Assembly: GCF_041435115.1 (NCBI RefSeq) | Contig: NZ_CP108046.1 | Coordinates: forward strand, 3,100,001 to 3,164,000 | DNA from: Streptomyces sp. NBC_00289 | GTDB lineage: Bacteria; Actinomycetota; Actinomycetes; Streptomycetales; Streptomycetaceae | Reading direction: 5' to 3' | DNA: 64,000 nt | In this document: piece by piece, positions 38,015 through 42,121 of the stretch | How the letters are laid out: each line of letters opens with the position of its first letter | Numbering within the stretch: the first letter of the stretch is position 1 | Notes under the pieces: generated by a model | The model's database searches: none | What the model saw: only the letters and a program-made list of their open reading frames with translations | What the model was told of the DNA's origin: nothing | Made by a program: the position numbers and the translations under genes

Positions 38015-39399
38015 TCACGGCCTCTCCTCATCGGCGTCGCCCCCGGGACTCACGTTGCCGGCGTGGGTGCCTCGCCCCTCCGGGGCGTCCTTCCCCGGCC
38101 GGCACGGAGTCGCGCCCGCCGCACCTCGCGATCCGGGTCGGGAACCACGCGCTGCCGGGATGCGAGGCCGCGATCCGTTCGTTGCGCGCTGTCGCTCGCC
38201 CGGCCGCGTCACCCCGACGTCCGCAGTGCCGCGGCCGCTGACCGAGCGAGTGGCGGGGCGTGTCCGCCGTCGACGGCGGGGCGCCTTGGCCGGTGCTGGG
38301 GACGGCTTCGCTTCGTCCGTCCGTTGCAGCTCGTCCTGTTCCGTCATGTCCGCTGGCGTCGTGTCGTGCTGCACCTGGACGGGGAGGATCATGGCCTGTT
38401 GCTCGCCGCCCGCCGCTTCGCGTTCCGCCTTGGCACGCCGTTGCCGTTCGGCGCGCAGGCATCGACGGATCGACTCCGGATCGAGGCCCTCATTGCATGC
38501 CTGGTGCAGGAGTCGGGCGAAGAGATAGCCGGAGTCCGCGCCCAGGGCCATGGCCAAGGCCTCCCGGGCCTCGATGCCGTCGGCGCTCGACCAGGCCACC
38601 CAGCCGGCCAGTGTGAGGGGCGCCGCGGCGTGTTCCCCGTACGGGCCGACGCAGCGGCGGGCCAGGGCTCGCCAGAGTCGCAGAGCCGGGCCGGCTTCGT
38701 CGGCTTCCATCCACTCGGCGGCGCGATCTCGAGTCGTGCGGTCCTGCAGGCCGAGGATCAGGGTGGCGGCTTCGCCATGTCCGAGCAGTTGGTCGTCACG
38801 GAAGTCCCCCTGAAGAGCGCCCGATGCGGGTGGCGCTTCGGCGAAACGCGTCATGACCCGTTGGGCGAGCCGTACGGTCTCCTCGGCCACCTGCGCCCGG
38901 TTCTTCTCGTCCAGCATCCGGGGGACCATGCGCCTGCTGATGGTGTCCAGGACAGCCTCCTGCTCCAGCGCCGCGGCGGTTTCCCAGGGCTGCAGCCTGG
39001 CCCGAAGCTCGCGGAGAGTGCCCCGGACCTGAATTCCCGCGTAGGTCGCCGCCGCGGCCAGCACGGAGGTCCCGGGCAGGCCCATCGGCAGCCCCTCGGG
39101 CGGACAGCATCCCTCGCTCGGGCAGCAGTACGACCAGAAGCGGCCGTCGGAGATGCACAACGCCTCGATGACGGGCACGTCGAGGCGGCCGCACTCCGTG
39201 CGCAGCATGCCGGCGAGAGAGGCGAGCCGGGTCATGACCTCTCGGCCGGACTCACCTTTCCCCGGCTCCTGGCAGAGGTAGGCGACCATCTGCTCGGGCT
39301 TGGCGCCCCGCCGCTCACTGCCCGTGATCAACCCGTGGGCAAGCTGGCGGGCTACCGAAGCCCAGTCGTCCTCGTTCGACGGAATGCCGAGCCGGGCCC
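38015..39399 (-). pseudogene. DUF4192 gene, C-terminal part cut off by an insertion sequence
   Basis: The C-terminal roughly 460 codons of a DUF4192 protein. Reading in from the insertion point, the frame opens ARLGIPSNEDDWASVARQL and continues into GSERRGAKPEQMVAYLCQ, well upstream of the TTG at 39331 that could be mistaken for a start. The body is helical, with a Lys/Arg-rich disordered tail (AKAPRRRRRTRPATR). Its N-terminal part lies at 41717-42121 across the insertion. The family function is unknown. The fragment lacks a promoter and ribosome site of its own. Confidence 0.92.
39395..39399. repeat. Target-site duplication, left copy (GGCCC)
   Basis: GGCCC directly before the left inverted repeat, matching the copy at 41717-41721. 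One copy plus both flanks rebuilds an uninterrupted DUF4192 frame. Confidence 0.9.
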
Positions 39400-39424
39400 C
39401 AGACCTCCGGAATCGGGTTCTTGA

Positions 39425-41608
39425 TCACTGTTGAGTCGGGGTGAGGTGGTAGGTGATCGGGCGGGGGTCGCCGGGGAGGTGGGGTGGGGTCTGGTTGATT
39501 TCGTCGATCAGCAGGGTCAGGGCGTGGGTCAGGCGGGGGCTGCCGGGTGGGTCGAGGGTGACGGTGATCTTCTTCGGCTGGTAGTCGAGGGTGCCGTGGA
39601 GGTGGAAGAGGCTGCGGGTCAGGGTCCGGTACTCGTTGTTGTCGCGCAGGTAGTTGTTGAGGCGGTCGGCGAGCCAGAGTTCGGTGTTGTAGGCCAGCAT
39701 CCGCAGCACCATCTGGAGGGTGCGCCGCCCGGTCGCGGGCAGGGCACGCTGCCGGCCGGGGTGGAGCTGGTTGGCGGGGATCTTGACCGAGATCTGCTTC
39801 AGCTCGGTCTTGGCGGTGGTCAGGGCCTTTTTGGCCTCGTCCACGTCGGTGCGGGCGGCGGGGATCTGCTGGTTGATCTTCGCGACGGGGCGGAGCGGGG
39901 ACTCGATGAGGCGGGCCAGGCGGCGTTCGGCGGCGGCGAGGTCCTTTTCCCGGTCGCGGACGGTCTGCAGGGCGGCGGCGCGGGCGGGGTTGTCGACCGG
40001 TGTGGTGTCATCGGTTTCGGTCATGCGGTAGTCGCACAGCCAGTCGATGCCGTGCAGGCGGGCCAGGTCCTTGATGGCGTTCTCGATCCGCCAGCGCGAG
40101 CGCAGCCAGGCAAGCAGCGACGCGGCGCCCGCGGTCATGTCACTGGTCAGCACCTGCAGTCGCAGCACCCCGTCCTCGAACAGGGAAAGCTGCCGGCACA
40201 CTCCGTAGCCGTCGAACTCCACCAGCTCATCCGCCAGATACACCACCTCGCCCGATCCGGCTTCGGCTTCGGCTTCGGCTCCGGCTCCGGCTCCGGCTCC
40301 GGCTCCGGCTCCGGCTCCGGCTCCGGCTCCGGCTCCGGCTCCGGCTCCGGCTCCGGCTCCGGCTCCGGCTCCGGGGGAAGGGTAGGGGTGGGCGGTGGGC
40401 TTGATGAGGGAGATCTTCAGTTTGCCGCGCCGGTAGGTGATCCAGTCGGTCTCGAAGGACCGGCAGACGTTGAACACGCTCGCGTAGGCGCCGCCGCGGT
40501 CGAAGCCGAGCATCAGTTTCGCCGCGGGGCCGGTGATGGCCCGCAGTTGTTCCAGTGCCTCGGGCAGGGTCCGGGTCAGCCCCGAGGGCTCGCCGGTGAG
40601 GAACGCCACCGCGCGGCCCCGGTAGTCGGTGACGAGCGTGTCACCGTGGCCCTTCTGGGCCTGCTTGCGTTTGTTGTTCCAGCCCCGGCCCACCGGGCGG
40701 GCCCCGGCATAGGGCACGAAGTGATCGTCCACGTAGTACACGCCCAGCGCGGGCGCGTCCACGGCCAGCATCGCCGCGGCCAGCTGCCGCTGCACCGCCA
40801 GGGGATCGCACGCATCGGCGATCGCCGCCAGCTGCGGGCGCAGCGTGCGCAACTCCGGGAGGCGGGCCAGGCCCGCCAGCGCGCCGGCCTCCCGCCGGTC
40901 CAGCAGTTTCGCCCCTTCGAGCGAGGAGATCCCCAGCCCGAACGCCAACGTCACCGCGCACAACAACGCGGCGTCATCAGCCTCGCGCGACGAGGTCGTC
41001 CGCAACGAGGCGAAGGTATCCGGCACTCCGGAGCGGGCCAGGAACGCATGCCCCAGCATCGCCCCTGCATACCGCGAGCGGACCTGCCCAGCCCGCACAC
41101 CCTCCAGCTCTGGAGCAGCGTCCCCGGCCGGCCCGGGCTGCTCCGCTCCCTCGGCAGGCAGCTGGAGTTCAGGTTGTGGCGCTATCGCGCCATGCCTGGC
41201 GAGCAGCAGGCTGATCTGGGAGCGGTGGATGCCCAACCGCGCCGCGATCTGTTCCTGAGACCATCCCTGACCGGCCCACCGCCGGGCCTGCTCCACTTGA
41301 CGCGGAGACAGCTTCGGGCGCCGCCCCATCGGCTTGACCAGGCCGGCCGAGCCATCCCGGCGGGCCCGCCCGCGAAGCATCGACACGTACTGCGGGGTCA
41401 ACCCGAAGGCGGTGGCCGCTTCCTGAACCGCGACGCCCGCATCAGTGACGGCCACCACCGCGAGATTACGCATCCCGCGATCCGCCGCGTCATACACGAA
41501 CAACACCGACACACCGCGGCTGACCAGGCACTTCCCATCGACCTCAACCCGGCGCAGCACAGAGGGTTCCGGCATCCCCGGAAGCTCCAGCACGATGGTC
41601 TCGGTCAC
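39425..41608 (-). CDS. DDE transposase with internal Gly-Ala repeat tract
   Basis: A 727-residue protein. A helix-turn-helix near residues 95-135 ([19 protein letters not shown], then [17 protein letters not shown]) should bind the element ends. Candidate catalytic acids are in [24 protein letters not shown] and [13 protein letters not shown], an IS4-superfamily-like D-D-E pattern. Between the second and third blocks is a tract of 16 Gly-Ala and 3 Glu-Ala pairs encoded by hexanucleotide repeats. The C-terminus has a coiled coil ([15 protein letters not shown]). The frame is open throughout, so the enzyme may be active. The family is not confidently known. Confidence 0.88.
40259..40372. repeat. 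Hexanucleotide tandem repeat inside the transposase gene
   Basis: On the plus strand, three GGCTTC units are followed by 16 perfect GGCTCC units, 19 units in 114 bases. On the coding strand they read Gly-Ala and Glu-Ala. The unit length keeps the frame whatever the copy number. Confidence 0.97.
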
Positions 41609-41716
41609 CAGGAGACCCTATCCATTCGCCAGCCATCTCAACAACTTTCACACAATCAGCACCGCAGAAAGCACGCAGGTCAGCGAGGTTATCCACAGGT
41701 CACTACCGGAGGTCTG

Positions 41717-41721
41717 GGCCC
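41717..41721. repeat. Target-site duplication, right copy (GGCCC)
   Basis: GGCCC immediately after the right inverted repeat at 41706-41716, identical to 39395-39399. Confidence 0.9.
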
Positions 41722-42121
41722 GGCCGCCGAACCGGCCACGTCCGCTCCGGTCGTGCAGGGCGACCAGAACGATGCTGTCCTCGGGCCGGTATCCGAGCAG
41801 ATACGGCAGGGCGTCGGCCAGTTCTGCCGGAGTCCGTAGCGTGATCTGGTGCTCGCCTCCGTGGGCGTCGTATGTCAGGCACTCGACGTGCTCGTCGCCA
41901 TCGGCGCGCCTGTCGACCGCGCCGGTGTGGTCGGGGGCCCCTCGTGCGCCTCGATCTCGCTCCCCCGCACTTTCGTGGCACCGCGTTTCGATCTCGCTGA
42001 TGTTGCCGATGTCACCGACCGCATCGCTGTCGGACAGTTCGAAAGCGCTGCCGGAGATGTCGAAGGATTCCGGAGATTCGGAGGATTCAGGGGATCCAGT
42101 CGTTTCGCTGTGATTCGTCAT
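41717..42121 (-). pseudogene. DUF4192 gene, N-terminal part upstream of the insertion
   Basis: The N-terminal 135 codons of the same DUF4192 gene, from the ATG at 42121. The first 75 residues are Ser/Glu/Asp-rich and disordered. Then the family's hallmark starts: ITLRTPAELADALPYLLGY, RPEDSIVLVALHD and RGRFGGRA. After the insertion point the frame enters the element and ends at 41648. Joined at one GGCCC copy, it reads FGGRA-RLGIPS into the C-terminal part. The truncated product lacks most of the fold and is presumed nonfunctional. Confidence 0.9.

Follow-up and report, generated by a model that had tools for sequence, protein, structure and literature searches.

Tn5/IS50, of the IS4 family, transposes by hairpin cut-and-paste, and IS4 transposases carry a motif with the spacing Y-(2)-R-(3)-E-(6)-K. 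PMC2266710 gives target duplications of about 7-13 bp for the IS4 family sensu stricto and 8-9 bp for IS50, and describes IS1634 as an emerging family, split from IS4, of 1.5-2.0 kb elements with AT-rich duplications of 5-6 bp and large transposases whose catalytic Glu follows a long spacer. Relatives in the group defined by PF21804 (Transposase_29) are numerous (at least 2654 in our database search), and a literature search by accession and name, mostly outside subscription papers, returned no relevant paper. Here, we describe an insertion sequence (IS) with a PF21804 transposase from Streptomyces sp. NBC_00289. It lies in a stretch of 64,000 nucleotides (contig NZ_CP108046.1, positions 3,100,001 to 3,164,000 of the forward strand), referred to as the window, and splits a DUF4192 (PF13830) gene. 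We put the probability at about 0.9 that a Tn5-like PF21804 DDE insertion sequence has recently inserted into the only DUF4192 gene of this genome, at a GGGCC/GGCCC site and with a 5-bp duplication, by the mechanism and with the spread set out below. The features, in window coordinates, are as follows.

39395..39399: target-site duplication, left copy GGCCC (direct reading of bases)
41717..41721: target-site duplication, right copy GGCCC (direct reading of bases)
39400..39410: terminal inverted repeat CAGACCTCCGG, end downstream of the transposase (direct reading and copy alignment)
41706..41716: terminal inverted repeat CCGGAGGTCTG, the reverse complement of CAGACCTCCGG, end upstream of the transposase (direct reading and copy alignment)
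39425..41608, minus strand: predicted transposase of 727 aa, PF21804 Transposase_29, E 4.6e-22 (frame, profile match, structure model)
40257..40370, minus strand: hexamer array of 19 units, 16 GGAGCC and 3 GAAGCC on the coding strand (direct reading and copy alignment)
41717..42121, minus strand: DUF4192 N-terminal part, PF13830 positions 1-35, ending ...RFGGRA at the element (frame, profile, alignment)
38015..39399, minus strand: DUF4192 C-terminal part, PF13830 positions 36-321, beginning ARLGIPS... at the element (profile, alignment)

A sequence-only reading of this DNA had proposed exact ends and a GGCCC duplication, and the bases agree at every position it named. Its span, 39395 to 42121, contains the insertion as given, with the refinement that the ATG of the N-terminal DUF4192 part lies at its 42121 end. 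Its size of 2317 bp between the duplications is likewise correct here and represents one allele within a range of 2299-2341 bp in the same genome. The perfect pairing of both ends ceases after 11 bp, and the exact 11-mer occurs nowhere else in the window. With at most one mismatch it has five matches in the window against a chance mean of 3.82, such that the 11-mer alone is modest evidence. A chance inverted repeat is nevertheless ruled out, because four further full-length copies end at the same base, each with its own perfect 5-bp repeat.

These copies were found by searching the host genome (G000; 11.0 Mb, 6 contigs) with the element. Besides the one in the window, full copies lie at C1:682394-684722, C1:4795192-4797532, C3:76772-79112 and C3:101723-104021, and three additional fragments are all located on contig C3. 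Aligned in one orientation, the five full copies reveal not a single difference outside the hexamer array, and all five are flanked by perfect direct repeats (GGCCC, GGGCC, GGCCC, GGACC and GGACC in element orientation). The proposal of an insertion sequence caught with its target duplication is thus borne out. The copy at C1:4795192 (L003) apparently sits in intergenic DNA; a topoisomerase I frame (Toprim and Topoisom_bac) has its start side at least 155 bp away.

Both DUF4192 halves match PF13830 at consecutive profile positions, 1-35 to the right of the element and 36-321 to its left, in agreement with the proposed splitting of the gene, and no second PF13830 copy was found in the host genome. 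For comparison, the 30 top-scoring DUF4192 loci of relatives were fetched from a list of 64 matches. In all 30 the halves are contiguous and deviate from the expected spacing by no more than 6 bases. Of these loci 27 were aligned, the remaining three having been missed by the motif used, and the protein runs continuously over the insertion point. The reading frame FGGRA-RLGIPS, suggested for the restored gene, is supported by separate alignment of the halves to the relatives and by the empty site of G009. A DNA motif for the empty site matched 11 of the 30 loci, and G009 (L075) provides a natural empty site, an uninterrupted gene in which RFGGRARLGIP is encoded by CGGGCCCGG. PF13830 is present in 60 of 61 Streptomyces genomes, the host included. 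The sole exception, G001, is a genome of 79% completeness; a second genome (G032) shows only positions 259-321 near a contig start, and the other 58 of the 60 have a single unbroken match over nearly the whole profile.

A native split or ancestral arrangement of the pieces, with an element older than the divergence of the species, is highly improbable. Both halves are still open frames, as this would demand, and yet the 30 fetched Streptomyces loci are without exception contiguous, 28 of them with a recQ homologue alongside as here, the duplication is perfect, the copies are identical outside the array, and the transposase was detected in just 2 of the 392 Streptomyces genomes searched, the host included. 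A DUF4192 homologue with the element as native sequence, which would have spoken against the insertion, was thus not among the fetched loci, and on their contiguity we reject the native split. Recent insertion into an intact DUF4192 gene remains the preferred explanation. The sequence-only reading had gone further and called it a strain-specific gene loss, which stands only in part. The sample contains one genome per species, so that insertion at the level of the strain and of the species cannot be separated. Moreover, 286 of the 321 profile positions remain in an open frame, and loss of DUF4192 function is for this reason only presumed. The C-terminal part is still open over 469 codons, so that a truncated product is possible. 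Beside the gene and divergent from it lies a RecQ-like helicase (42252-44435). As a recQ homologue is found within 28 of the 30 fetched loci, a functional link between DUF4192 and RecQ is hinted at.

The transposase frame is open, as had been noted; it encodes 727 aa and is oriented in the same direction as the interrupted gene. An 802-aa frame on the opposite strand overlaps its DNA and extends past the element end; it is taken as a by-product of high G+C. The protein scores 78.4 bits against PF21804, whose curated cut-off is 27, and a profile search reveals an N-terminal helix-turn-helix region. In the predicted structure, an RNase H-like core with D, D and E and a beta insertion corresponds to the Tn5-like DDE fold, with D294, D370 and E509 as candidate catalytic residues. 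Structural alignment to solved Tn5/IS50 chains gives 10-12% identity; retroviral integrase and coiled-coil entries lower in the structure list were discarded as generic matches. A sequence-profile search of solved structures gave nothing beyond weak hits to helix-turn-helix regions, with E 0.0013 at best.

Compared with Tn5/IS50, the transposase is much longer (727 against 455-460 aa in the solved chains), has the additional helix-turn-helix region, and makes a 5-bp rather than an 8-9 bp duplication (PMC2266710). The duplication of 5 bp at all five copies also lies outside the range of IS4 sensu stricto. In our alignment of 24 proteins (A1), R505 and E509 are invariant, position 502 is Leu and a Lys stands, by eye, at 513 instead of 516; by our own reading, the transposase therefore has the IS4 motif without its Tyr and with the Lys displaced, and does not conform to the IS4 spacing. 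No NCBIfam IS4 model matched the window transposase at E 1, and among eight relatives scored against cut-offs the best reached 26.1 bits against 115. IS1634 is similar in its 5-6 bp duplications and its large transposase, in which a long spacer precedes the catalytic Glu, and differs in its AT-rich duplications and its size of 1.5-2.0 kb (PMC2266710), compared with GGNCC at 12 of 12 ends and 2.3 kb here; it is absent from the 8 NCBIfam families to which at least one of the 24 members shows a match (E 1e-3). IS1380 models match 6 of the 24 weakly (best 4.6e-08), with 18.6-32.1 bits in four of these six against a cut-off of 180 (NF033539), and NF033539 does not match the window transposase at E 1. 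Hence, no named IS family lies above its cut-off in the window transposase or in the eight relatives scored, whereas PF21804 is matched by 24 of 24 proteins (E 1e-3). The element belongs to a little-described group, PF21804, with a Tn5-like predicted fold.

The hexamer array is the only region in which the five full copies differ. It encodes a Gly-Ala/Glu-Ala linker at about residues 412-450 and comprises 19, 21, 23, 23 and 16 units, no two copies sharing a pattern, with transposases of 727, 731, 735, 735 and 721 aa. None of the other 23 aligned proteins has a long Gly-Ala array; the region is short in them, and P0001 and P0002 contain a short Glu-Ala run. In the AlphaFold model, residues 412-452 have a predicted local distance difference test score (pLDDT) below 50 and are located between strands 405-408 and 455-465. 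In G088 (L028), the two hexamer arrays of a copy like that of S. qinglanensis have recombined with a 19-base overlap at the junction, and the catalytic part between them is deleted. L028 and the S. qinglanensis locus (L026) share the same insertion, in which the 3' part of the transposase gene is replaced by another transposase-like frame that we take to be IS66-like. A nested remainder on C3 (see below) also breaks within the array, and along this line the array appears as the least stable part of the element. Replication slippage or recombination probably alters its length, at a far higher rate than the remainder of the element changes. That the array serves as a tuning knob, its length altering a flexible linker at the entrance of the beta insertion so that sister copies differ in length and activity, and that an unnamed Tn5-like, RGNCY-targeting group would thereby adjust its own mobility in the manner of a contingency locus, is a speculative idea to which we give rather little credence. 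A literature search linking hexanucleotide or other variable repeats to transposases, again mostly outside subscription papers, found nothing relevant. Arrays resembling (GGCTCC)n also occur outside the IS copies of the host genome; 21 of the 29 matches in the search with the element are short matches to the array region.

On C3, the element has been inserted into itself. The nest at C3:101262-104703 (L024) consists of a full inverted copy (101723-104021) inside another copy, inserted at GGTCC (element positions 224-228). The full copy is preceded by two tandem 228-bp left ends, both identical to the element, and followed by a remainder that starts at position 224 and extends into the array, where it gives way to other sequence. 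The simplest order would be an insertion X at GGGCC, then Y in X and Z in Y, with Y and Z both choosing the same GGTCC among the 26 GGNCC sites that the element offers. Since only a single right-hand remainder is present, a deletion would have to have followed the nesting. The remainder has 2 substitutions ahead of the array and is therefore probably older.

The choice of target follows a simple rule in the host genome. A pattern search for GGNCC adjoining the exact 11-bp end yielded 12 matches: the five full copies account for 10 of them, one at each end, and the tandem left ends of the nest for the other two. The chance of six distinct GGNCC target sites is approximately 7e-13, given a GGNCC frequency of 0.0093 per bp under the window composition and positions treated as independent. 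The S. qinglanensis copy and its counterpart in G088 show GGTCC at the sole readable end. A 198-bp element at C2:141355-141552 (L032) has 14-bp ends, of which the first 11 are identical to those of the IS, and AGCCC on both sides; it looks like a miniature inverted-repeat transposable element (MITE) within a frame that is presumably an IS110-type transposase. We found no second copy of it in the host genome, and a multi-copy family is unsupported: a 32-base match (positions 4-35, in apparent coding sequence) is all that 2 further genomes, out of 199, gave. Distant relatives were checked for ends at eight loci, L034-L037, L039, L040, L045 and, as a separate count, the pair in S. qinglanensis. 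Ends were located on four contigs (L034, L035, L036, which equals L040, and L039) and none were found in L037 or L045. In these four relatives, at 45-49% identity and from other families of the class, the ends start with CAGACCT, and two (L035, L036) have the full CAGACCTCCGG at both ends. All five ends with a full readable flank (L034, both of L035, the right one of L036, L039) adjoin AGCCT or AGGCT. Read together, the GGNCC sites, the AGCCC of the C2 element and the AGCCT/AGGCT of the relatives suggest a palindromic RGNCY target whose outer bases vary by lineage, with GGNCC in the lineage of the host. A literature search for insertion sequences targeting GGNCC found none, and one for 5-bp duplications in Streptomyces gave only papers on resistance in other bacteria; the absence is weak, as most subscription papers lay outside these searches.

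Several observations weigh against our interpretation. The whole-protein AlphaFold model has a mean pLDDT of 75.1 and a predicted template modelling score (pTM) of 0.61. The array alleles are taken from the assembly, in which errors in repeats are possible. With up to two mismatches, the end-plus-target pattern occurs 66 and 59 times against 91 and 90 for a reversed control, so that only the exact matches carry weight. The two flanks of L035 (AGCCT, AGGCT) do not form a direct repeat, and a matching pair of flanks was seen in none of L034-L036 and L039. Finally, CC always precedes and GG always follows the element, which fits 13-bp ends (CCCAGACCTCCGG) and duplication of only the central base of GGNCC in all five copies; since 12 of 12 ends are preceded by CC, the full copies here cannot separate this parse from one of 11-bp ends and 5-bp duplications. 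We consider the 13-bp parse quite unlikely. The C2 element shares the 11-bp ends and is flanked by AGCCC at either side, favouring 5 bp, the distant relatives carry CT in place of CC, and the IS4-derived families IS701, ISH3 and IS1634 duplicate 4-6 bp according to PMC2266710.

Within the genus the element is rare. A search of 392 Streptomyces genomes with the N-terminal part of the transposase had hits in two, the host and G088; it scored at most four candidates per genome and listed 4 of the 5 host copies, so that misses are possible. Of 197 genomes of the order only the host matched PF21804, and of 394 genomes of the class five, the host included, had a member of the aligned family at E 1e-80, with two candidates scored per genome. 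A scan of genome contigs with the N-terminal 401 aa gave 151 pattern-matching stretches, of which one locus, in S. qinglanensis, encodes a relative. No plasmid relatives were found in PLSDB (tblastn, same 401 aa), and none of 20 pattern-matching stretches in viral contigs (alignment A1) encodes one. Rarity together with the identity of the copies argues for a recent arrival, in line with the recent insertion that the sequence-only reading had proposed. Gene conversion between old copies would equally yield identical dispersed copies, and array-to-array recombination is seen in the G088 deletion. It is an improbable source of the identity, however, as all five sites have perfect target duplications, the nested remainder retains its 2 substitutions, and the element is seldom met in the genus.

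We therefore favour recent transposition. The helix-turn-helix region of the transposase would bind the 11-bp ends, and the putative D294-D370-E509 active site would excise the element, by analogy with Tn5 probably through hairpin cut-and-paste. Joining would take place over a 5-bp stagger centred on the palindromic RGNCY target. The element may have entered the genome not long ago, spread to two further chromosomal sites and to the 110-kb contig C3, and there inserted into its own copies.

The finding is mostly an ordinary one, an IS caught shortly after insertion; its palindromic 5-bp target rule and hypervariable coding repeat raise the element somewhat above routine. Exact ends, duplication length and a target rule are now given for the PF21804 transposase group, and five copies that differ in one coding repeat permit a direct test of the effect of linker length on transposition. 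For Streptomyces, the clean recent insertion represents a natural disruption of a near-universal gene of unknown function, and suggests that this host can do without an intact DUF4192.
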